A stretch of 64,000 nucleotides of DNA from Punctularia strigosozonata HHB-11173 SS5 (taxonomy: Eukaryota; Basidiomycota; Agaricomycetes; Corticiales; Punctulariaceae), in contig NW_006767436.1 of assembly GCF_000264995.1 (NCBI RefSeq), forward strand, positions 2,063,011-2,127,010, given 5' to 3'. A model generated the notes under the pieces. The model was not told the DNA's origin, searched no databases, and saw only the letters and a program-made list of their open reading frames with translations. Positions 22,027 to 64,000 of this stretch are shown here, piece by piece. The translations under genes were made by a program, and so were the position numbers. The first letter of the stretch is position 1; each line of letters starts with the position of its first letter.

Positions 22027-23207
22027 TTACCTCTTGATCCTTGTTGAGCGTCGTGCTCCTACGCTAGCCGCCTCCGTTGCTGCCTTACGCTTCTTCCCTT
22101 TCTGCAAGGACACAGCACCAGCTTCCGGGCCACCTTCGTGAGGTTTGTCCTCGGTTTCGCCCTTCTTCGACGCTTTAGTCGACGTCTTCTTTTGGGCTTT
22201 CTTACTCAGCTCCTTATCATCCCAGCCACCACGCTCGGTCATGCTGGAAATCACGTCAAACGTCGTTTCTTCAACCCGCTGGACGCTTAAACGTCCCCGG
22301 TTGACAAGCGCCATTCCTTGATGGGCGATAATCTTACGTGAGTACACATACGCGATGCAGATCTGAAGTATGGTGCGCTTGCCTTGGATAGCCTTGACGC
22401 CCGATTTGCCGATATATTCAAGGCCCTCCGGCGGGTCCGCGCCGGTGGAAAGCGCTGCGATGGTCCGCAGGAGCGCAAGCGGTACAAAGTGTGGTGCGCG
22501 CTTGACAAAGGTCAAGTCGACCATGTACCACGTCGGGTTTTCCTGCTTGGTTTTCTGGTTGTGAAGGTATGTTAGCGCGAATGTCTCCGGGTTTATCAGC
22601 ATGTCAGGCTGACTGGGTCAAAATACGGGTGGGCGCTGACCGACTTGATTTCATGAGCGGATAACGCGGACCTTACAGGATTCCTAGCCGACTCACGCGT
22701 TCCATGCAGAGTCTGCTCAAATCCATAAGCATGAGCGCATTGTTTTCAGGTCGGGTCCGATGCATGCTTACGATCGGGGTACGCAAGCTTAGCAACCTTG
22801 TGAGGCGTGTGGGACACAGTGAGGTGCAGGACCTTGGCATGTATACGCACGAGCACTCACCTCGGCGAATCCTGCAATGCCAGGATTTTTACAGTTAGAG
22901 TGGTAGAACAGAACCTATGAGCAGCGTCAGGTACAGAAACATTAGTATCTCCGATAGGGCGTGAATATTGCAATGCTATACTTTATCTCCTATTTCCATC
23001 TCCTTCATGAGGTTCTTTGCTTCATGGTTGCGCACTCCTTCCCATGCAGTTGTTTTGGCCTCTTCGAAGTCGTCCACGCTGAACTTGGAAATCGAATTCC
23101 TCATGTTTCATGTGAGGTTGCACGTCGCGTCGTACAGAGCATACCTTAACGTCGTTGCCTTTCACAATGCGCGAATCAGGTTCGGCTTTCATCAACCAAA
23201 ATCTCAT
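22027..23207 (-). CDS. EVE-domain protein (THYN1-like)
   Basis: EVE domains have a PUA-like fold thought to bind modified bases. Exon 1 gives MRFWLMKAEPDSRIVKGNDVK, then FSVDDFEEAKTTAWEGVRNHEAKNLMKEMEIGDK, VLFYHSNCKNPGIAGFAE, VAKLAYPD, HPYFDPKTKQENPTWYMVDL, TFVKRAPHFVPLALLRTIA, GLEYIGKSGVKAIQ and GMALVNRGRLSVQRVEE. These blocks follow the family order closely, including the aromatic FYHSNC strand. A basic tail (KKGKKRKAATEA...RRSTRIKR) suggests nuclear location. The intron at 22317-22382 would need a GC donor and is 66 bases with no stop, so its retention would add 22 residues in frame. Biological role in fungi is unknown. Confidence 0.85.
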
Positions 23208-24144: not shown

Positions 24145-26074
24145 ATGCCAATGATGTATTGCAAGTCGACGGTCGGTTATCTGCTGCTTTCTTTGTCTGT
24201 ACTTTGTGGGTCGAGCGCCGTGCCTCCCCGAGCTTCGGCCCCAGCGGAACCCATACCTTCTCTCGCATTCAGCACGACTCTCGCTGGGAAAACCTTCGTT
24301 AACAAGGTCCGTTAGCAACCCGTGATGTTGAATCGCGAAAGCTCACCGTCTTGGAAATGCGCTTCAGGGCCTTGTTGCGTTCGGTCTCATCCCATCCAAC
24401 TTCACGGAATCGACTGGTGACACAATCGGAGGTATCGGAAGCGCCATTGCCTTGAAACGCGGATCCTTCCAGCGGCATGCCAATGGGACATATACGGGCA
24501 CCATCATCGTCCAACCAGACCGTGGCTTCAATGTGTATGCTAGAGCTCGTTCACACTATGATCTAAGTTTACTGAATGCTTAACTTCAGCATAACCACTA
24601 TTAATTACCAAGGGCGTCAGCACAGCATCGACTTCACGTTAACACCTTACTACGGCACTTCCGCTTTGTCGTTCAGCGATGCTCAACAAACCCTGAAGTT
24701 AAACTACAAGAGCACGCTGCTGTACTTCGATAGGGGTCATGTCAAGACCAGTGGGCTGGATGCGTTAGGTATTCGGCCTGCAGAGGATGGCTCTCCACAA
24801 GACTCCCTCGCCGATCCAGTGATGCCTATCCCCAACAGCACCTTCAATCACCTCAGCGTGGACGCGGAGGGCCTTGTTCTCAATGCTGACGGAAGGTCGG
24901 TTTTGAGTCCAGTATTGGACCTACAGTAGGTACTGAATGTCGCCCAGTTTTTGGACATCCGACGAGTATGGCCCGTATATTTACCGGTTTTCGCCTGAAG
25001 GGGATCTACTGCAGGCAATCCAGCCGCCCGCCGCCTTCCTTCCTGAGAATAAGAAGGGAAACATCAACTTCACCTCCGTAACGGATCCTACAACAGGGAG
25101 GGCTGGGAATCAAGGTTGATGTTTCTAATATGGGGCCTCTGGTTATTGTTGACATAGTGCTGCATGAATAGGATTCGAAGGACTCACTGCATCCCCCGAT
25201 GGATGTACTCTTTACGCACTGCTGCAAAGTGCCACCATCCAGGACGGGGGCGACTCGAAGAGCACCTCTCGATACACAAGGCTACTCGCTTACTATATCC
25301 CTGCCACCACCAGCACCCGTCCCCAGCTGATTGGTATGTGACACGCTCGGGCGGTATAATCTGCTCATCTCGAAGGGATGTTCTAGGCGAATGGGTCGTA
25401 CCTCTGCCCCAAAATTCGAAGGGTAACACGCTCGCGCAGTCAGAGATGCACTTCCTCAGCCCTACCACGTTCCTTGTCCTCGCGAGAGATGGCAAGGGAC
25501 ACGGAGACGACGATACGTCGTCTTCGTATAAGGTTCGTGGGAACTGTATTCGAGGTTCTGTTTGCTCATTGTCAATCCGGCAGCAAGCGGACCTGATTGA
25601 CATCTCGAACGCTACCGACATTCATGCCACGAGGTTTGATGACCCAGCTAACCCCATCGCGAAGAAGGGTAAACTCGACTCTGCCATCACGCCAGCGACC
25701 TATGTTCCATTCGTCAGTCTCATCAATGACACCCAGCTTGCAAGGTTCTCCCTGCACAATGGCGATCCGGCTAATGCTCAGCTCATCGATGCGAAATGGG
25801 AATCACTCGCCCTGGCTCCTGTGGGCGATCCTGCTTTCCCCCATGATTATTTCCTGTTCACAGCCGTAGGTACATTCTTCGCGAAATCGGATTACTCCTG
25901 ACCGAATCTCTCTCGCTGGCCTAGGCTGACAATGACTTCATCACCACCGATGGCATCTCCTTGGGTCAGCCGTACAACGCAGGCTTGGACAACGACAATC
26001 AGTTCATGGTTTTCCGCGTTACATTACCGACCGTGGCAGCCGGCAGTGTGCAGAGAGCCATCGGTATCGAGTAA
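24145..26074 (+). CDS. Secreted phytase-like esterase
   Basis: The N-terminus carries a signal peptide (MMYCKSTVGYLLLSLSVLCGSSA). Mature blocks, read over about eight exons, are FNVSITTINYQGRQHSIDFTL, PYYGTSALSFSDAQQTL, TLLYFDRG, SGLDALGIRP, NHLSVDAEGLVLNADGSFWTSDEYGPYIYRFSPEG, GFEGLTASPDGCTLYALLQ, EMHFLSPTTFLVLARDGKGHG, ADLIDISNATDI, ESLALAPVGDPAFPHDYFLFT and NDFITTDGISLGQPYNAGLDNDNQFMVFRVTLP. This is the 'esterase-like activity of phytase' beta-propeller type, with the SDEYGPYIY and ADNDF motifs. It is probably extracellular. Substrate is not readable. The start is the first of three clustered methionines before the signal helix; an upstream in-frame ATG (24082) would bury the signal. Confidence 0.85.
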
Positions 26075-26259: not shown

Positions 26260-29200
26260 CTAAGTGCTGCGTTCCCAGTAAGACAAAGTGACAATGGGCC
26301 GAGTGTTCGCTTCATCCTCGATTTCCAATTTGTTCAGCACTGGCTTTCTAGGGTGCTTCCGCCTGTAGCTGCGACTGAACGCAGTTGGAGGGAAGTCGAC
26401 GGCAGGAACGAGCATATTAGAACCTGAAACATTTATGAACAAGCATACTAGGCCGAACCGTAGAGCTCGCGCACCTTTTCCGAGTCTGTGTGCTTCGCGG
26501 TGATGAAGCGTATACAGGCTGACGGTGCCTGGACCACTGATCTTGTGTACCATGAAGTAGCACATAATCCGGCCCCAGTCGCTATGACCGGGGCTTCGTT
26601 CCCTCTCTTTGGCGATGACAGCCTCAGCGCTTTCCCAAGTGATGGGGCGGTAATCCGGGGCTTGTTGAGCCATTTCCTTCATAACGTGTGTATCTATGCT
26701 TGCACCAAGAACCAGCGGCTCAAGGGGTTTCCCAGAAGAGTACCATTGCAAGAACGTCTGGGGCTGCAACAGAAAACGTAAGCAGCATGAAAAGACCACT
26801 CCTCCCCGTGGATTGGTGACTAACCTTCGGCTCTGGTCCATGTCCTTGCAGGGCGTGTCTTCTGACGTCGGCAGCAACGTTGTTCAGTTCATCCATAGGC
26901 GTCTCCGGACCGATACTGATGTTGTTGCCCATCCCAGACGTTGCCCTGGCTATGCCGTACGGTCCGGACGACGGAGGCACTAAAGGAGCTAAAGGCTCAG
27001 CCGCGGCTGGTTCGTCCTTCTTCTTCCCTTTCTTTTTCTTCCCCTTCTTCCCCTGTGGATATCCGTCAGATCAAGGCCGGCGAGAATTCATGTGTCACGT
27101 ACTGCTGCTGTGGTGTCCTCATCCGCCGGAGTCGCAAGAGACGCGGAGGGCCCATCAGCGGGAGCAGCCCCGTAAGTCCCAGACATTGAGTTATCATTTG
27201 CGCCATTCAGATCCCAGCTCGCGGATTCTTGACCCTAACAAGCGGTGAGTCACCTAGTTAGTCTACGATACGGTAGGTCACATACCGATTGAAGTTCGAG
27301 GCCAGTGTTATCAATCTTCTGCTCGTAACCGCCAGTGAGGCTCGCCGTTGCCCAGGAGCCATATTGATCATTCGCAGACTGCTGTCCGGAACCCAACGAG
27401 AAAGCCCCTGCGTTATCGTTTGATGTATAGTTGTTACCCCAGGACGATCCGAACGCGCCATTGCCATCGTTGACGTTGGTTGGGAACAGTGGATCAGCCG
27501 TTATGGGTGCGTACGAAGGTTCGGAAGGAGGTATCCCGTCCTTCGGCGTAGCAGCGGCCGGTGTCTCAGCAATGGAGGCGTCGTTCTTGCCCTTTCCTTT
27601 CTTCTTCTTTGACTTGATATGACATCGTCAGATCGATGCAACGCCGAAATTATATGGATGCTCACTCCTGCTTGGGTTGACGCGGCAAAGCCCCAGTCAT
27701 CGGTATTCTCGACTGGAGGGTCGACAGCGGGCTCGGGCGCAGGAGGCTGTTCCGCTGGCGGCGCCGGTTCAGCAACAGGGGTGGGCTCAGGAGTAGGCTC
27801 CGGCGCTGCCCCCCAGCTAAACGACTCTTGCTTGCCCTTCTTGCCCTTCTTGCCCTGCGCAGAATATTCAGCGACCCCGTAAAACGTATCGTCAGTGGTT
27901 AACACACTTTCGCTGTCGTAGTCGGAGTGAACCCCCAGTTATCCACAGGCTCCTGTGATTCTTCCTTCCTATCTTCTTCCTGCACGGATGGCTCTGGCTC
28001 AGGGTCGTTGCGTTCGAATAAACTACCCGCTTTGCCTTTCTTGCCCTTCTTCTTTGACTGCTTCTAAGGTTAGGATCCGGTGTTTCTTACAGCGAGCTAC
28101 TGCACTCACTGCCGCAGTGGAGGAGAATCCCCAGTTGTCTTCTTCCTGCTTCTCTTCTGGCTCTGGCTCTGGCTCTGGCTCCTTTGTCTCGGGGATGACT
28201 TCTGTCCCTGTCCCTGCTGGCGGAGTCTCCTCCTGAGGTGTCGCGTCGAAGACATCCCGTGCCGATGGCGTGGCTTTGCCTTTCTTTCCTTTCTTCTGTA
28301 CGTAATCGTCAGGTCCTCAGATACCGGCAGTCAACAGTAGTAATGTACGTACGCCTTTCGCTGTTGAGGAAAATCCCCAGTCATCCGCCTGTGCTGCCGC
28401 CGGTTGTTCCGGAGCTGCTGCAGGAGTCTCCTCCTGGGGAGTTGCCGGGGTCGAGGTGTCAGGTGTTTTGCCCTTCTTGCCCTTCTTCTGTGAGCAGAGA
28501 TTAGATCCTCAATGCACGATGTCACGATACAACATGTCGGGCTACACTCACGCCTTTGGTGGTCGTTGGGAAGCCCCAGCTACCGACGTCTGCTTCAGTC
28601 TCCTGCTCCTGCTCGGGCGTTGGTTCTGGTTGCGTCTGATTTCCCTCTAGTGCGGGTTGCCCAGGCTCCTCTTGTGTTGGAGATGTGAGACCAAATGAAG
28701 ACCCCCAGCCGCCGAAAGTGCTGGCAGCCTTGCCCTGGACGAAGATCATCGTTGGAAATGTCGATAAGTTCAACATCATAATCACTCACGACTGTCGAGC
28801 TGAAGTTCCCGAATCCGAAACTGGACGTGCCGAAAAGATCCTGCTTTTTTTCCTCTTTACCCTCCGGGGACTTCTCCGGTTCTCCACCTATAGCATCCCA
28901 ACCGAAGACGCTGCCAGCTTTTTTGGTCTTTCACACTATGCGTCAGTGATGCGAACCCGAAATTGCACAGCGTGCTTACAGAGAAGCTACCGAATCCACC
29001 AACACCACCCAAACCGAAGACGGATTCGGTAGCGCCGGCTGCCTCCTCTTTGGACTCAGCTGGAGCTTCCGTAGCCGCAGGAACCTCTTCTGCGGGCGTG
29101 CCGGATGTTGAGTCGCCTAGAGCGTCCCACCCGAAAGCCTGCTTGCCCTTCTTTCCCTTCTTCTTCTATGAACACAGTCAGGTACAGCATCAATGGACAG

Positions 29201-29852
29201 CCGGAACCTTGCTCACCGCAGCTGATGACATGCCCCAGTCGTCCTCCTCCTTCGCCTCTTCCTGTGCCGGCTGTTCCTGATTTTGGGGAGTGGCCGACGT
29301 CGTGCCAGCATCTGGCTCGTCCCAGCTGAATGCGTTACCCTTGGCTTTCTTACCCTTCTTCTTGCCCTGCGCCTGTATAGTAGTGTAAGAATGCACTCTG
29401 CTGAGTTCAGTAAGGCGGCGGTCCAACGCACCGCTGCGGGAGTAAACCACGAATCATCCGCCGCCTCTGTCGTCTCTGCCTCCCCTCCCCCAGCTTCTTT
29501 CTCCAATACCGCGTCGAGATCATCCATTCCATCGCCCTTTCCCTCTTCGTCCTCTGCAGGCGCAGGCGTCTCGTTGTCCTCGACCTGTCCCTTTTTGCCC
29601 TTCTTATCTTTCTTTCCTTTCTTGCCCTGCCCGAGCACGACAATTCACCGATTAGGTGGGGAGCAAGAAGCGTAGGTTGCTGGGGCTCACCGCTGGTCCT
29701 GGAACATCCTCTGGCTGCTCCGCGTTGTCTCCCGCCAGAAGCGCGTCCAAATCATCCATACCATCTCCCGCGTCCGGCGCCGGCTCCTGCTTGGGCGAGG
29801 GAGGCTCGGGACCCTTCTTGCCCGCCTTCCCAGTCTTCTTCTTAGCCTGCAT
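26260..29852 (-). CDS. Lysine-rich disordered protein built of tandem in-phase exons
   Basis: Fifteen exons can be placed: 29691-29852, 29432-29626, 29217-29366, 28980-29165, 28790-28927, 28552-28734, 28353-28487, 28110-28295, 27908-28063, 27666-27854, 27286-27612, 27103-27234, 26825-27052, 26475-26763 and 26260-26423. Most of exons 2-10 begin with a basic KKGKKGK-type block, carry an acidic proline/glutamate linker, and end with a tryptophan motif such as DDWGFSSTA, EDNWGFSSTA or DDWGMSSAA. Those I checked begin and end in phase 0. Exon 13 again starts KKGKKKKGKKKDEP. The C-terminal part is not repetitive (PLVLGASIDTHVMKEMAQQAPDY, SDWGRIMCYFMVHKI, then a basic tail ending SYWERST). No known domain recognised. 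The start is MQAKKKTGK, or an ATG at 29902-29904 spliced directly to AKKKTGK. Confidence 0.72.
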
Positions 29853-31791: not shown

Positions 31792-33064
31792 ATGTCGACC
31801 AACAACAGCACGCTCGATCGCAAGGACCGCATCCCCTCCCCAATCAGCGAGGGCTCTTCACGTGGGAACGTCGTCGACCACAATGCTCCTCATGGTGAGC
31901 GTCATTGCGCCTTCTAGTGCCCCCTCGAGCTCATTTGGTATCAGTGACCGCTGACCCTGGGCCCTCAGCACCGCGCCGCACCGGGACAGAGTATGTAATC
32001 AAGGTTCAACCCTTGAAGCGCAACGAGATGCAGGTCCGTGCTCGGGACTGTTGAACCGGGCATTGCGGAAGCTAAATAAAGGCGTTGTCTTCAGCCTTCC
32101 TATGCGCAGGACATGGGCTTGCAAGAGGTCACCCATGGTCTTTACGGAACACTCCTTCAGGGGCTCGGAAACTTTGTCGGCTGCTTTGGCGCCGTTCCCT
32201 GCTTCCCTTGCCCGAACCCTTACCGGGACGTCAAGCAAGGATCAGTCGGCTTGGTTTCTCGATTTGGCCAGTTCTACAAATCTGTAGACCCTGGCTTGGT
32301 CCGCGTTAACGTCTGCACCGAGTCACTCCGCATCGTCGACGTCAAAATACAAATAAGTGCCATCGGACGCCAGAAGGTCATCACGCGCGACAACGTGGAC
32401 GTCGAAATGTGAGTGGATATCACATTGGAAGCGCAAGCATATATGAAACTGTTCCAGCGATTCCGTCATTTATTTCCAGATCACCAACCCTTACCGGGCC
32501 GCCTTCGGTATCACTGATTTGCGTCAGGCTCTCATAGAGCGAGCGCAGACCACCTTACGGCACGTTGTCGGCGCACGGGCCGTGCAATCCGTCGTCACCG
32601 AGCGCGAGGCGATCGCGTTTGAAATTGCCGAAATTGTTGGCGACGTCGCGGACAAGTGGGGCGTCGCCATCGAGGGCATCCTCATCAAGGATATCATCTT
32701 CTCGCCCGAGGTTTCCGCCTCCCTCTCGTCCGCCGCACAGCAGAAGCGGATCGGCGAGAGCAAGGTCATCGCCGCCCGCGCCGAGGTCGACGCCGCCCGT
32801 CTCATGCGTCAGGCCGCCGACATCCTCGCGAGCCCGGCCGCGATGCAGATCCGGCAGCTCGAGGCGCTGCAAGGCATGGCGAAGAGCGCGAACAGCAAGG
32901 TCGTATTCGTGCCGATGCAGCTGCAGAGCGACATCGCGAGTCAACTGGCGCCGCAGGCTTCATCCTTTGGAGCAGGTCCGTCGAGCGCCTTACGGGAGGA
33001 GACAGGCGAAGGCTTTGGCGCCACGTCTAGGGCGGCCATCCTGAACAGCGCCGCTGAGTTGTAA
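31792..33064 (+). CDS. Stomatin-like SPFH/Band 7 protein
   Basis: A membrane scaffold protein of the SPFH family. The polar N-terminus (MSTNNSTLDRKDRIPSPIS) is followed by the hydrophobic hairpin LLQGLGNFVGCFGAVPCFPCPNPY. The SPFH domain runs from GSVGLVSRFGQFYKSVDPGL through SLRIVDVKIQISAIGRQKVITRDNV, SVIYFQITNPYRAAFGI, DLRQALIERAQTTLRHVVG, SVVTEREAIAFEIAEIV and KWGVAIEGILIKDIIF. The coiled coil (IGESKVIAARAEVDAARLMRQA) and the oligomerisation stretch with VVFVPMQLQ follow. The last exon is long and GC-rich. The cysteine-proline hairpin suggests palmitoylation and monotopic insertion, as in human stomatin; whether it sits in mitochondria or plasma membrane is not decided by the sequence. Confidence 0.9.
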
Positions 33065-39359: not shown

Positions 39360-42300
39360 ATGTTCGGGAATAACGCAATCACGTCTACCTGGGGTCAGCC
39401 CAACAACAACAATCAGCAGCAGCAGGGGACGTCTGCGTTTGGCCAGCCAGCCAACAGTGCGTTTGGAGGTGGCGGAGGTACGTCTTTCCCAGCCCGCGGC
39501 TGAGTGACTGAGCGTGCTGTAACTTCTTCCCATCTCATAGCGTTCGGGAGCGGAGGAGCCTTTGGTCAACCCCAACAGCAGCAACAAACACCAGCAGCCA
39601 ATCCCATGTTCGGTAGTTTCGGCACCCCTGCGGCAAACACTAGCCAACCCGGGACGTCCGGTTTTGGTGCGTCTGATGTACAATCTGCGACCCCAACGCG
39701 TCTTGACACGCGTCAAGGTGCCTTCGGTCAGAACAATGCATCGACTACCGGTGCATTCGGCGCGAAGCCAGCCACTGGATTTGGCGCTTTTGGGGGCACC
39801 GGGACCTCGACGTTTGGGTCCGGTGGCGCGTTTGGGAACACAACGGCGCCTCAGCCGGCTGCAACGGGTGTGTTTGGTCAACCCAGCACAAGTACAGGCG
39901 CATTTGGAGGGGGTGGGAGCTTGTTCGGTACCAACAAGCCTGCGACTACGTTTGGTACAACTGGTAAGAAGCCACTGAAGTGCATCCAGCGGTTTGACAC
40001 CATGTTAACATGTATCTTCACTTTAGCCGCAGATACGGTAGCCCCAGTAACGACGGGGTCATCCAATCCGCCATACTCCGTGTACTCGGAGAAAGATACA
40101 GCAAACGCTAGCATAACGCTGCAGTACCAGAGCATATCATGTATGCCTGCATATAGGGGCAGTTCTTTCGAGGTGCGCTTTTCATAATTTCGAGCTATAT
40201 ATCCTCGCCGGGCATGAGATCTGGCGACACATTGTCTGTCAAAACTCGACTAAGTTTATGTTGCCCGTGTTAACTCTCGGCATAACCCCTTCAACACACG
40301 CGACAGGCATCTGACTGTTTCGTCTTTTCCCTACCCGCTAGGAACTCCGTGTACAAGATTATCAGCAGGGTCGCAAGACTGCCAATGCAACGGTTGGGAC
40401 CGGCTTCGGGCAACCGGCCACCGGCGCATTCGGGCAACAGTCTACATCAGGCGGGATCTTCGGTCAACCTGCCCAGAGCACAACAGCCAACAATGCGTTT
40501 GGAGCATTTGGGTCCAACACAACCGCTACCCCGGCTACAGGCGGATTTGGTGCCTTTGGCCAGCAGAACAATGCGAGCCAACCCGCCAACACCGGTGGAG
40601 GTCTTTTCGGCGCGTTTGGTCAGCAGCAGCAACCACAAAATCCTCAGCCTTCGGCGTTTGGAGCCTTTGGGCAGGCCAATCAACAGCCAGCCGCGACTGG
40701 AACGAGTGGTGGGCTTTTCGGTGGAGGTAGCGCGTTTGGGCAACAGAACAAACCTGCGTTTGGTGCATTCGGTATGCTCATGTAACTCAGAAACTTGACC
40801 ATACGCTGATCAATTCGCAGGGGCAAATAACACCACAACCAGTGCTTTTGGCCAACCGACTCAATCGCAGCAGCCCACTACCACAGGCCTCTTCGGCCAA
40901 CAGCAACCGCAACAAAACACTACTGGTAGTGCTTTCAGCGCCTTCGGTAGGATGATACTTCGCCATATCATTTTATAGGCTCTCACGAACAGCAATTACT
41001 TCAGGCAGTAATAATAATCAACCGAAGCCCTCATTGTTCGGTCAACCGGCTCAGCAACCAGCGCAACAGTCGACTGGCTTTGGTCTCTTCGGCCAGCAGA
41101 ATCAGCAGAACCAGCAACAATCGGGCCAGCCAGCGACAGGCGGTCTATTTGGTGGTGGAACCACCGGCGGGGGCTTGTTCGGTCAGAACAGTCAGCAGCA
41201 GCAGCAGCCGTCTCAGCCGCAAACAGGAGGTTGTAAGTAACATAACCTCTTTCAGGTTGCTTGCGCTGATAGTCGTGTAGTATTCGGTAATACTCAGCCC
41301 GCTCAGCAGCCTGCCACTGGCGGTCTATTCGGCGGGGGGACTACAGGAGGGCTGTTCGGGAACACGCAACAACAAAACCAGCAGCAACCAACACAGACGA
41401 GCGCATTCGGTGGAGGCGGACTTTTCGGTACAAAACCCGCCACTACGACGCCTACCACCGGCGGACTATTTGGTGGACTTGGACAGAACAACACTGCGAC
41501 GAACACTCAAACATCGACGGGTCTTTTCGGTAGCACCTTTGGTCAGAACAACGCGCAGCAGAACAATACGGGCAGTACATTGAGTGGCGGCTTGTTCGGT
41601 ACAAAACCCGCAGCCCCGGCTTTCGGAACGGCGTCGTCGACGGGGCAGGCTACCGGAGGATCTCTCTTTGGTAGCACGCTTGGTGGCACTGGCAATACAT
41701 TCAATGCTTCCGCTACTGCTCCCGGTGCACAAGGATCGCTCACTGCGTCAATCGCACAACCCATTGGAGCCAGCCTACCTGTCTTCAGCATGCTACCTCC
41801 GGGTCCACGGGCAGTTCCTCTTGATCAACCGAAGAAAAAAGCCGGCTTCTTCACGGATGTTCCTACTCGTTCACCAGTTCCCAGATTGCAGCTTGGATTT
41901 ACCCCTGCAAGCACGAAGCTACGCGGTTTTGCGTCGACGGCCGGTGGAGGCAATCTCGGCTCCAGTTTAGCATATTCAACGACGAAGTCGGACGCTCTCA
42001 ACCTCACTCGATCGGCCTCCCCTAATAAGGGCATACCTGGACCTGATGTTTTCCTTAACGGAGGCGGCACAAGTGGCAGCAACGGCCGTCAAAGCGTGAA
42101 GAAACTGGTTCTGAACAAGAAAATCGAACCTGCTCATCTACTTGGCAGAGCGGGGTCGCCGGGCCTTGCTACGGCCGGTGGCAAAACGTCCTTCAGTCCA
42201 GTGCTTGGGATCGCTGCACGACAGAAAGAGGCCGAGGCTGCTTCAACGACGCCAAAGCCAGAAACTCCTGAACCCACCCCAAGTTCCACCCGCCCCAAAC

Positions 42301-42791
42301 CATCCGATGGCGATGCATCGTCCGCGGACCCGAAGACTGCAGACTTGCAAGAGGGCGAGTATTGGTGCAAGCCTGACTTAGCCACCTTGCGCACGATTAG
42401 CTACCACGAACTGCGTGCCTTCAAGGGGCTGGTGGTCGGTCGAGTTGGCTATGGCCAGATCGAGTTCCTCGCCCCGGTCGACCTGACCGGAGTGCCGCGG
42501 CTTGACGCCTTATTCGGCGATCTGATCCTCTTCGAGGATGCAGAGTGTGCCGTTTATCCTAATAGCGACGAGGCGGACAAGCCGCCGCCAGGCGAAGGTC
42601 TGAATGTGCCGGCAAGGATCACGCTCTGGAAGTGTTGGCCATTGGACAAATCCACGCAGGAGCCTATCAAGGACAAGAATCATCCAGCTGCTATCAAATT
42701 TCAAAAGCGCCTTGCCAAGCGAAAACACATCAAACACGAGCATTGGGATCTGGAGGAAGGGAAATGGGTGTTCCGGGTCGAGAGTTTTTAG
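39360..42791 (+). CDS. NUP98: Nucleoporin NUP98 (FG/GLFG repeats, GLEBS, autoproteolytic-type domain)
   Basis: This is a structural and barrier component of the nuclear pore. It opens MFGNNAITSTWGQPNNNN and runs through many FG, GAFG and GLFG repeats with glutamine-rich spacers. A GLEBS element (YSVYSEKDTANASITLQYQS, ISCMPAYRGSSFEELRVQDYQQGRK, split by an intron after SSFE) predicts binding of Gle2/Rae1. More GLFG repeats follow. A linker with KKLVLNKKIEPAHL is followed by the C-terminal domain (YWCKPDLATLRTISYHELRAFKGLVVGRVGYGQIEF, DLTGVPRLDALFGDLILFED, HWDLEEGKWVFRVESF). The protein stops there: there is no HF-S cleavage site and no NUP96 part. About seven introns, all short. Confidence 0.92.
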
Positions 42792-49238: not shown

Positions 49239-52200
49239 ATGCCCGATGGCTCTGCCATGACCAAGGATACGTTCAATACGTTAGAGCGAGAGCGCAAGTT
49301 TAGATTCCCCGACAAGACCGGATCCACGGTCCCAATACTCAACGAATTTGTGCTCCCTCACATCGAGTCTTTCAATGCTCTCTTCGACGATTCTGGCTTG
49401 CCAAAAGGCGATGGCAATGGCAAAGGCCTGCTGTCGCTCGCCCTGAAGGATATCGGAGAACGCGTGGTATTTGATGGAACAGGCGAACTTGGCAACGTGA
49501 GTGGTCAGTCGGGTTGGGGCAATCGCCTTGCAAGTGAGTTTCGCAATCGAAAGTTCAATGTTCCATCGCATAATCATATGCATGTCAGTTTCCATCGAGG
49601 AAGTAACTGTGGCGCGTCCCATGGTCTCTGAACGAGCTAAGGCTGTCGTGGAACCCCGTATATTCCCTTCCGAGGTGAGAGGTTGCATCTGTCTGCAGGA
49701 TGCATTCCGTCATGCTATAGTGATGACATACTGATTTTTCGTCTGTCATAGGCTCGTGAGAGGCTGACATCCTATCGTGGAAGGATGTACATCAAGCTCA
49801 ACTTTACGCTCAATGACAATCCGGTCCGCACAATCCAGAAAGACTGTGGTTTACTCCCCATCATGGTCCGCGTGCGTTAGAGACGAGTTCGCTTGCGCGT
49901 ATTATACATGCTGATAAGGGCTGTTCACCATATAGTCGGTCCGATGTAATCTTCGTTCCATGTCCTCTGCAGAGCTCGTCGCACGGCACGAGGAACCGGA
50001 AGAATTCGGGGGGTATTTCATCATCAACGGCAATGAACGCCTTATCCGTCTTCTCATTTTACCTCGGAGGAACCATGCTATTTCCCTGTTTCGCCCTTCT
50101 TGGGCCAACCGCGGCCCGTCTTATACGCCGTACGCCGTCCAAATACGGTGCGTCCGCCCGGACCAAACCGCCGCCACGAACACGCTGCACTACCTGCAAA
50201 ATGGCAACGCCGTCCTACGCTTCACTTGGCGGAAGAATGAATACGTTATCCCCGTGATGCTTATCCTCAAAGCTCTCGTTGGTGCCTCGGACAAGGAGAT
50301 ATTCGAGGGGCTTGCCATGTGTGATTACGAGAACACGTTTTTGACAGACCGCATCGAGATGTTGCTTCGCGGTTTTAAAACATATAGTCTGTACACAGGC
50401 ACTCAATGCCTCGAGTACCTCGGCGACAAGTTCCGTGTCGTGCTCGGTTGCCCCGAGGATTGGACGAATTCCGAGATCGGTGACTGGTTGCTGAAGAAGA
50501 TGGTTCTCGCTCACCTGCAAGATCCGAGGGACAAGTACCGTATGCTCATGTTAGTCCCGTACCCATCCCAACTGATTGCTTGCTCATCCTTCGTACAGTT
50601 TCATGCTCCGCAAACTTTACTCCCTTGTATCTGGATCGTGCGCGCCGGATAATCCAGATTCTCCCCAGCACCAGGAGGTCTTGCTTCCAGGGCATCTCTA
50701 TGGAATGATCATCAAAGAGCGCCTGGAGGAGGTCCTCGCTCAAATTCGGAGTCAGATCTACGCCGACGTGCGCAGAGAAGACCCTTCCATCGACTTTACT
50801 GATGGTACGTCGTGGACGGTCACATCTTCGCTCGGCGCTCTGATGGGTGCCCACCAGATCGCTACATCAATAAAGTTCTATCCCGCGTCAACTTCGACAT
50901 AGGCGCGAAAATGTCCAATTTCCTCGCTACTGGTAACCTGATTTCCCCGACCGGACTTGATCTCCAGCAAACATCCGGCTTTACCATTGTCGCCGAGAAA
51001 CTGAACTGGCAGCGCTACATCAGCCATTTCAGATCCATACATCGTGGGGCTTTCTTCGCTGAATTGAAAACGACGACGGTCCGTAAGCTGCTTCCGGAAG
51101 CTTGGGGTACGGATTTTGCATTACTGTGTCCGTTTGTCTGTCTAATCACTTATCGACGAAATGCAGGTTTCTTGTGCCCTGTGCATACGCCCGATGGAAC
51201 GCCTTGTGGTCTACTAAACCATTTATCTCGAACATGTCGGATCGTGACTACTCCGCTACCCGTCGCTCACCTTCCCGCCCTGCTCGCGGAACACGGCATG
51301 TCTCATCCATTCGCGCCTTCACTTGATGGTCGGGGACATGCCAACCTTTGCGTTCAACTCGACGGCCGGGTCATCGGCTGGGCCCGACCTGCCGTGGCGC
51401 TCCAGCTCGCTGAAAGGCTTCGGATATGGAAGACAGAAGGCCTTCACAATGTGCCCCTGGATCTCGAAGTCGGATACGTTCCGATATCGGAAGGTGGACA
51501 ATACCCTGGGCTGTACCTGTTTTCGACGCGGGCTAGGATGATGCGACCGGTTAGGTACCTTGCGAACGGTCGTGATGACATGATTGGTTCGTTTGAGCAG
51601 GTTTATATGGACATCGCGATCAAGCCCGAGGAAATCGAGCTAGGGGTTTCTTCACACGTGGAACATGCTCCAACGAATTTCTTGTCTATCCTTGCCAATT
51701 TGACTCCGTTCTCGGATTTCAACCAGGTCGATGTCTGCCTATCTGGATATGTTGCCTGATACTGAATGTTCTATAGAGTCCTCGCAATATCTATCAATGT
51801 CAGGTACGCGACTTGGCGACAATGATCGAATTTCTGTGTCTCACCGAATAATAGATGGGCAAGCAAACCATGGGTACGCCCTCGACCGCCATCAGACATC
51901 GCACGGATAACAAGCTATATCGTCTTCAATCTGGGCAGAGTCCCGTCGTACGCCCTAAACTCCACAATACGTACGGCATGGATTCCTTCCCCAACGGCAC
52001 CAATGCCGTTGTCGCCGTTATTTCCTATACTGGTTATGACATGGAGGACGCCATGATATTGAATAAGTCCGCGCACGAACGCGGCTTTGCCTACGGCACC
52101 ATATACAAATCGCAAACTGTCGATTTACAAGAACAGCATGGAGCTTCGAAGTCTAGGACCTCACCCACTCTGCATTTCGGCATAGGGGACGACGTCATCG

Positions 52201-62029: not shown

Positions 62030-64000
62030 TCAATCTTCGTCTTCCTCTAATGCACCAATTTCATACTCTCCGCATATATCCCATCGCGACCCCTCGGCAG
62101 CGGCTGATACATATTTAACGAACTTCAAGACACCCTCGTCCCTCAGTACCATGAGCATTCTGTTGAATCCCGGTTGCACTGTCAGCAGCGTCCCGTCATC
62201 TTCGTCCTCGTCGCTTGAAGCGGATGCCATGGAAGCATCCTCATCCTCGTCGCCACTGGATTTTCTCTGGTCTTCCTCTGTAGAAGAGGGAGCACTGGAA
62301 GTCTGGATTTGTCCATCGTCACCATTGGCAGTAGCACGTGCGCCTTCCATCCCATTTTGTCGCTGAGCGCCCGATCGATAAACAGCGGGGTCTTCGTCGC
62401 CTTCGTGAGGAGCCATATAGCACTACATCCATCAACGGTTAGCGGTAAATTCGAACATTGAAACCAGAAATTCGCCTCCCAACCACCCCATAGGCCGGTT
62501 TCCCAGCCAGTGGGCTTGTGCTGTGTCCTCTTCTTCTTCCCTTTTGCCTTCGCCTCGCGAGCCTGGGCTTCAGGAGTCAAGCCGAGCACCACATCCAGGC
62601 GCGCTTCCTTTTCATTGCTCGTTGCCAAAGTGTAATCCAGCCCGGGTCGGAAGCGCCGGGCCTGAGCCGCGAAGCTCAGCGGTACCATTTGGGAAACGGT
62701 GGCGAGCCAAGCGCGGAAAGCCTCGCTTTTGAATAGCTCATCCTGAAGACTACGAATAATCTCCGTCGTGGAGGTGTTCGCAGCCCGAGGCTCGACTACA
62801 GCAGACGATGAGCCAGGGACTTTAGGCCGAAGCGTGCAGTAGCGCCATTTGTGTGGTGGGCCTGTGATTTCCCAGTCCCCGCTTAAACCGGCAGTATGAA
62901 GCGGTATGCGACCTTGCCGCTGCCCTTGGTCCAACCCGGCGTCTGCATCGGCGTCCCGTAAACCCGACAGGAGACGTGCAGCAAGCGACTCGGAAAGGAA
63001 GGAGTGCAGCTCCAAACTCGACTCTTCCACGAACCGACCGGCGAGTGCCCTCATCGTGCGCGGTTGAAGGTATACAGGATTGAGAAATTCGCGGAGGAAA
63101 GATGTGTGCTCCGGCGGTAATGTAGCGTCTGGCAGTGGCGGATCGTTCGTGTCTGCGTACGGGGTATGGTCGATGGAGCTGGAGGCCTAAGTACAAATCA
63201 GTGTATATTCATCGCATGGGAGCATAGAATTTACAAGTTGTTCGCGCGAGCTCTTGAGTTCCGGCGCAGGCTCGGGCACATAATCCTCCTCACCGGGTTG
63301 CGCCGCGTGGAACCATCCGCTGATACTCAAACGCTCACGGCCATCCTTTTCTTCTTTGCCGACGACGACTTCCTCGACGGAATGGAAGCTTTTTCCCGGC
63401 TGCACCTCGAAAAATATGAACTGGTTCCAGCTGGGTGGTATGCTCCTCGCCGGCAAAGCCTCGGGTTCCGGTATGCCACCTGGGCCATCCTTCGTAGCAT
63501 ACAACTCCAGTGCGCCGCCCCATTCCGGCTGCCACGTTTGTCCATGCGGGAGGGGCATATATAGGATGTATGATACCCGTCGGGTGCCGATCACGTCGTC
63601 ATGATTAAGAAGATGGCATCCGAACTTGTATGTGTTGACGGACATGTCTTGTTTGCTCCCAGAGAGTGGGCCGCATCCTGTAACGGTGCGCACGAACGAG
63701 CGGAATTGCGGAGAGTAGAGGGCGTTTCGCAGAGTGAGCAATGAAGGCAGGCGAGCGAGGTCCTCCGAGGACAGAAAGGACAGCGATGCAAGATCGCCGG
63801 TCTGGTGAACCTACAGGGGATCCAGGCCATGGATGAATCTACGACTATGACTCTGATCTGGTCTTGCACGCACCTTGTATATATCCGTCTCCTTTTCAGT
63901 GAAGCACAGCTGTCCTAAACACTCGTCTTTCACTTTGACAAGCAGTTCGTCCTGGAACAGCTGATCCAGCTTCGCATGTTTGTAGGGTTCGCTACTGGCA
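62030..64000 (-). CDS. TPA1: Prolyl hydroxylase TPA1/OGFOD1-like, 5' end outside the window
   Basis: A 2-oxoglutarate and Fe(II)-dependent dioxygenase of the Tpa1/Ofd1/OGFOD1 family, which hydroxylates a proline of ribosomal protein uS12 and affects translation termination. Visible parts are LVKVKDECLGQLCFTEKETDIYKVHQTGDLA, LTLRNALYSPQFRSFVRTVTGCGPLSG, then VNTYKFGCHLLNHDDVIGTRRVSYILYMP (HxD iron ligands) and WGGALELYA. SWNQFIFFEVQPGKSFHSVEEV and RLSISGWFH bring the second histidine and the 2-oxoglutarate arginine. The second, degenerate half-domain follows (PEHTSFLREFLNPVYLQPRTM to WRYCTLRPKVPG, RRFRPGLDYTLAT). The gene ends with an acidic tail (GALEEDED). Catalytic residues are intact. The protein start lies beyond the right edge. 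Confidence 0.9.

Follow-up and report, generated by a model that had tools for sequence, protein, structure and literature searches.

Introduction

Animals offer well-known examples of genes in which in-phase exons have multiplied and the product is disordered and blocky, among them titin PEVK and elastin. In tropoelastin, a cross-linked extracellular elastomer not known to have acidic linkers or Trp, in-phase exons alternate between Lys-bearing and other blocks. We know of no Trp-Gly motifs in the PEVK region of titin. According to excerpts of one report, this vertebrate region is Pro/Glu/Lys-rich and disordered, is spread over many exons and has undergone exon duplication and loss (PMC6469411), and excerpts of another distinguish two motif types in it, PPAK and poly-E (PMC9100103). 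A different group of described proteins, the WG/GW Argonaute-binding proteins, carries Trp-Gly motifs in apparently disordered sequence and includes GW182/TNRC6 and Tas3. For Cryptococcus, excerpts of two reports list Gwc1 as a GW/WG protein and Gwo1 as GW182-like, the latter within a P-body complex that also contains Ago1 (PMC6643885, PMC4778953).

Here we describe a gene from the basidiomycete Punctularia strigosozonata HHB-11173 SS5, found in a 64,000-nucleotide stretch of DNA (hereafter the window) on contig NW_006767436.1. It resembles titin PEVK in being a Pro/Glu/Lys-rich, putatively disordered product of many duplicated exons, although PEVK is an animal muscle spring and the likeness is one of architecture, not of sequence comparison. 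With tropoelastin it shares in-phase exons with alternating blocks, whereas its acidic linkers and Trp have no known counterpart there. As far as the excerpted descriptions go, it has in common with GW182/TNRC6, Tas3, Gwo1 and Gwc1 many Gly-adjacent Trp, apparent disorder and Argonautes in the genome, but Lys blocks, a Phe at +2 and an exon-per-motif layout set the fungal gene apart; these proteins are likened by features and not by homology.

Results

A predicted gene of in-phase exons

The minus strand from 29852 to 26260 was modelled, from the sequence alone, as one gene of 15 exons with a 937-aa product, which starts at an ATG at 29852 and reaches its stop at 26260. The predicted features are as follows (positions in the window).

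26260..29852, minus strand: the complete coding sequence as modelled (15 exons, 937 aa)
29691..29852, minus strand: exon 1, opens with MQAKKKTGKAGKKG; GDGMDDLDA common to exons 1 and 2
29432..29626, minus strand: exon 2, basic block, MDDLDAVL, ends DDSWF
29217..29366, minus strand: exon 3, core module with a basic block, FSWDE, an acidic linker and DDWGM
28980..29165, minus strand: exon 4, core module with a basic block, FGWDA and an end rich in FG
28790..28927, minus strand: exon 5, variant module whose basic block is weak; FGWDA, end rich in FG
28552..28734, minus strand: exon 6, variant module that has lost the basic block; GGWGSSFG, ends GSWGF
28353..28487, minus strand: exon 7, core module; KKGKKGK to DDWGF
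28110..28295, minus strand: exon 8, core module; KKGKKGK to DNWGF
27908..28063, minus strand: exon 9, core module; KKGKKGK to DNWGF
27666..27854, minus strand: exon 10, core module; KKGKKGK, FSWGA, DDWGF
27286..27606, minus strand: exon 11, opens KKKGKGK; long G/N/S-rich stretch holding SSWGNN and GSWATAS
27103..27234, minus strand: exon 12, no basic block; SWDLNG
26825..27052, minus strand: exon 13, opens KKGKKKKGKKK
26475..26763, minus strand: exon 14, non-repeat C-terminal region
26260..26423, minus strand: exon 15, preceded by the doubtful intron 14

Fourteen GT-AG introns of 46-65 nt each were placed, and the reading frame stays open across all of them. Donors match GTRNGY in 13 of the 14, and a CTNAY branch-like site lies in the expected zone of 11, compared with 23 of 300 windows taken from exons and 834 of 5000 random ones. 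Every exon from 1 to 13 has a length divisible by three, and the introns spanning exons 1-14 are in phase 0 without exception (13/13), as the earlier note had claimed for the exon ends that it translated. Intron 14 is in phase 1; it lacks a branch-like site and is open and in frame if retained, so its reality is doubtful and exons 14 and 15 may be a single exon. For both exon 3 and exon 11, an alternative acceptor 6 nt upstream is equally possible. The gene architecture is real and unusual, and is well supported at the sequence level.

The gene stands tail to tail with a plus-strand frame that seemingly ends in TAA at 26072-26074, about 185 bases from its stop at 26260. Elsewhere in the window we found an EVE domain at 22030-22617 (minus strand, E 1.7e-8, a fungal gene), a Band 7/SPFH domain at 32447-33061 (plus strand), the Rpa2-specific domain of the RNA polymerase I second-largest subunit at 50803-51756 (plus strand, E 1e-25) and an Ofd1 C-terminal degradation domain at 62185-63186 (minus strand). 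A Nup98-96 autopeptidase domain at 41241-42788 (plus strand, E 7.6e-40), with FG repeats ahead of it, marks a Nup98-type nucleoporin, which is a separate gene.

Module plan and age of the copies

A typical core module runs from a Lys/Gly block, through FxW(D/G) in some exons and an acidic Pro/Glu linker, to D[DN]WGF; exons 4-6 are variants that carry FG-rich text. These few FG-type stretches recall the FG nucleoporins, although FG motifs are few here and the full protein has no Pfam match. Lysines are concentrated at the exon starts, with 57 of 83 lying within the first nine residues of the 13 exons, a count matched by none of 771 border rotations, so exon borders are module borders. Pairwise comparison of exons 3-10 found 23 of 28 pairs alike. 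These eight exons form a clear duplicated core, exons 1 and 2 are a related pair, and exons 11-13 are only partly alike. Consecutive alike exons in a single phase place the gene among those made of symmetric exons duplicated in tandem, with an architecture like that of PEVK. The phase-0 introns, the coincidence of borders and the alike exons together confirm the serially duplicated in-phase exons proposed in the earlier note, and its view that one exon was multiplied in place agrees with the likeness among exons 3-10 and with phase 0 throughout exons 1-13. Of its count of about ten repeated exons, the duplicated plan stands, but the core numbers eight, to which the related N-terminal pair is added; the repeat exons were rightly recognized there, but the non-repeat C-terminal region (exons 14-15) was omitted.

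Codons were compared within the shared motifs. Between the KKGKKGK blocks of exons 4, 7, 8, 9 and 10 there are 22 synonymous differences in 36.7 sites (pS 0.60), with pN = 0 by choice of identical blocks. For D[DN]WGF in exons 7-10, synonymous differences reach 12 of 12 (pS 1.0) and pN is 0.05, a low value that is partly built in because these columns were picked for likeness. Over a wider nine-codon Trp block pN rises to 0.23 in exons 6-10 and to 0.32 in a set of seven exons, and the six-codon FxW block gives 0.22, which indicates that the core residues alone are kept; the linkers vary freely in length and sequence between modules. Given the high synonymous divergence in the shared motifs, the module copies are not recent.

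No general likeness is seen between the introns, and among 91 pairs only (10,12) and (4,10) reach the test floor. The copying of the exon together with its flanking intron, which we propose, thus draws solely on position and phase. No direct trace of copied introns is left, as would also be the case if the repeats had been born inside a single exon and every unit had afterwards received an intron at one and the same place. Such a history is unlikely: it would require 13 separate phase-0 insertions, making it less simple than the copying of a unit, a lysine block opens 10 of exons 1-13, and the introns are unlike recent copies of one element.

Searches for families, second copies and the C-terminus

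The full 937-aa protein matched no Pfam family, and the 13 exons searched singly gave nothing better than E 0.068. A profile search with one module, which the earlier note had proposed, was carried out in PDB and found no known repeat family (best E 7.1). For the C-terminus there were no matches in PDB or NCBIfam, and the best Pfam match, DUF7071 (E 0.11, 12.7 bits), fell under the cut-off of 27. The absence of a known match, as first noted, is thereby upheld for Pfam, NCBIfam (C-terminus only) and PDB, where nothing rose above the cut-off. AlphaFold run without an alignment gave a mean pLDDT of 46.7 for exon 14 and of 36.9 for exons 14-15 with intron 14 read through, values too low to yield a usable model. 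The real function could be carried by this non-repeat C-terminus. Pattern searches with the C-terminal region yielded one matching stretch among viral contigs and 54 among prokaryote genomes, none of them confirmed; both collections are poorly suited to fungal genes, so these searches say little on the spread of the family.

We also searched the organism's own genome (33.6 Mb, 32 contigs). The first 104 residues of the C-terminus matched one place, and the three matches of exons 4-6 were these exons themselves. Both matches of a pattern joining an acceptor to KKGKKGK lie inside the gene; another pattern matched twice, once in the gene and once on contig C2 without a comparable open frame, and GAYRAYTGGGGNTTY matched eight times, four in the gene and four in short or unlike frames. 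Whether the query was the C-terminus, exons 4-6 or a motif pattern, no second copy was found in this genome, although the six-frame searches score the best candidates only, so that a diverged copy could escape. The gene is apparently single-copy. In the collection of papers searched, GW repeat, Argonaute and basidiomycete nowhere occur together, the papers on exon duplication in basidiomycetes or tandem exon duplication in fungi mention no gene of this type in their titles or the opening of their abstracts, and of the strings KKGKKGK, DDWGF, DNWGF and FGWDA two occur, once each, in papers unrelated by title.

A possible scaffold and the alternatives

Charged residues make up 28% of the repeat region, and its mean charge is close to zero (-0.056 per residue). 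The charge is arranged in blocks, with a variance over 10-residue windows of 6.5 versus 2.7 in shuffles (s.d. 0.34). Gly adjoins 11 of the 15 Trp, versus a mean of 3.6 and a maximum of 9 in 5000 shuffles, a contrast that is overstated because the module copies are not independent. Successive Trp are spaced 19-65 residues apart, and the common forms are W-G-F-[STAP] and W-G-M-S. The alternation of basic and acidic blocks with regular tryptophans, as originally described, is borne out by these measures. Judged from its composition, the repeat region is probably disordered.

Taken together, the Lys blocks, acidic linkers and Trp-Gly motifs point to a disordered multivalent scaffold, and we see about an even chance that this fungal gene grew by in-frame exon copying and that its product is such a scaffold, acting by avidity. 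One phase-0 exon with its flanking intron would have been copied repeatedly in tandem, each copy contributing a complete binding unit of a Lys/Gly block, often an FxW, an acidic Pro/Glu linker and a Trp-Gly-Phe end. The product would be a long disordered scaffold working by avidity, whose lysine blocks would hold acidic partners, either RNA or the acidic surfaces of proteins, its own linkers among them, and whose Trp motifs would serve as short linear motifs docking with a folded partner or among themselves. Scaffolding, avidity, partner binding and the kind of partner are what we infer from the modules, and phase separation or condensation of the putative scaffold is possible. We expect the number of modules to change more over evolution than by routine exon skipping. 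For Schizophyllum commune, excerpts of one study put exon skipping at 1% and intron retention at 43-44% of coding-region alternative-splicing events in transcript models, and its splice-junction count gives 1,527 coding-region skipping events among 15,054 events (PMC5034255). Since this published evidence, so far as excerpted, is mixed, we lean towards reading the phase-0 exons as a trace of whole-unit growth, with isoforms also possible.

Known short-motif classes were compared with the 15 Trp. Ligands of the gamma-ear and GGA-ear domains follow aromatic-G-[PDE]-aromatic/L/M, and this class was rejected, as none of the 15 Trp starts such a motif. Atg8-interacting motifs are repeated Wxx[LIV] preceded by acidic residues; among Trp-started forms, Wxx[LIV] occurs at 2 of 15 (WDAL and WDAI, in exons 4 and 5), neither preceded by acidic residues, and this class was likewise rejected. 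A septal-pore disordered protein was considered and dropped, nothing in the gene pointing there.

A more specific partner would be Argonaute, if the Trp-Gly motifs in disordered acidic text docked into PIWI tryptophan pockets so that one hook per exon gathered several Argonautes. The protein has the several Gly-flanked Trp of the hook class, at the frequency and spacing given above (disorder judged from composition only), and the same genome has Piwi-domain matches on five contigs (C1, C4, C10, C12 and C16), although some of the matching pieces, mainly on C4 and C12, contain stops, so that some of the genes may not be functional. The solved structures nearest to the PIWI region of the C1 Argonaute are Neurospora QDE-2, at E 2.9e-62, and human AGO2, with a best E of 5.4e-60. 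What counts against docking is that Argonaute hooks are not known to carry, as a rule, a Phe at +2 or lysine blocks, both of which this protein has. We compared this one Argonaute with human AGO2 at 12 positions that we take to line the pockets (F587, P590, V591, L650, F653, Y654, F659, K660, R688, L694, E695 and Y698): L650, F653, R688, Y698 and P590 are kept and L694 is conservatively replaced by F, but F587, V591, Y654, F659, K660 and E695 are changed. Basidiomycete precedents for GW-kind partners exist in Cryptococcus Gwo1 and Gwc1, on the excerpted listings (PMC6643885, PMC4778953). Excerpts of a 2025 survey describe one of three Trp pockets as distinctly conserved in fungi, but the fungal sites as remarkably variable and outside any shared repertoire (PMC12477606). 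Argonaute docking of this kind is thus a minor possibility. Its fuller version, in which every frame-neutral exon would bring a Trp hook together with its own RNA-binding lysine block and the copies of the exon would set the number of Argonaute and RNA contacts, is improbable; if true, the number of Argonautes per scaffold could evolve one exon at a time. Near the C10 Argonaute, a 256-residue open frame (L007:1-768, minus strand) runs off the end of the locus; it has many KGKGK-type blocks between A/V/E/P stretches and an acidic tail, and is without Trp.

The lysine blocks might instead be a by-product of AAG-rich exon starts kept mainly as purine-rich splicing enhancers. Over 21 nt, purines make up 81-100% of the starts of the nine K-type exons that have an intron before them, versus 33-62% for the other five, and excerpts of one report describe that lysine is preferred near exon borders in vertebrates and some insects, and that C. 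neoformans has many amino-acid trends where its exons end (PMC2374712). The acceptors tell against it: the pyrimidine share upstream of them is 0.47-0.65 for the nine K-type exons and 0.41-0.71 for the other five. Weak acceptors and lysine blocks are not clearly coupled, and the idea is not clearly supported. An enhancer also has no need of the Gly in every third place (KKGKKG), and we hold this explanation to be unlikely as the main cause. Relaxed low-complexity sequence without selected function would agree with the freely varying linkers and the lack of a family, but it is the least credible account, given that the core motif residues are kept despite synonymous divergence (in columns chosen for likeness) and that the frame is open over 14 introns.

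Discussion

The proposed scaffold, formed as we think by exon copying, belongs to a kind already known. What is new here is the multiplication of symmetric exons for a blocky, probably disordered protein, with the function proposed above, in a fungus. Symmetric exons may serve whole-unit growth or isoform choice, and these two uses would be easier to tell apart with the aid of a clean example from a fungus whose introns are short. Should the Trp motifs bind Argonaute or another hub, one could read the valency across species from the number of exons.
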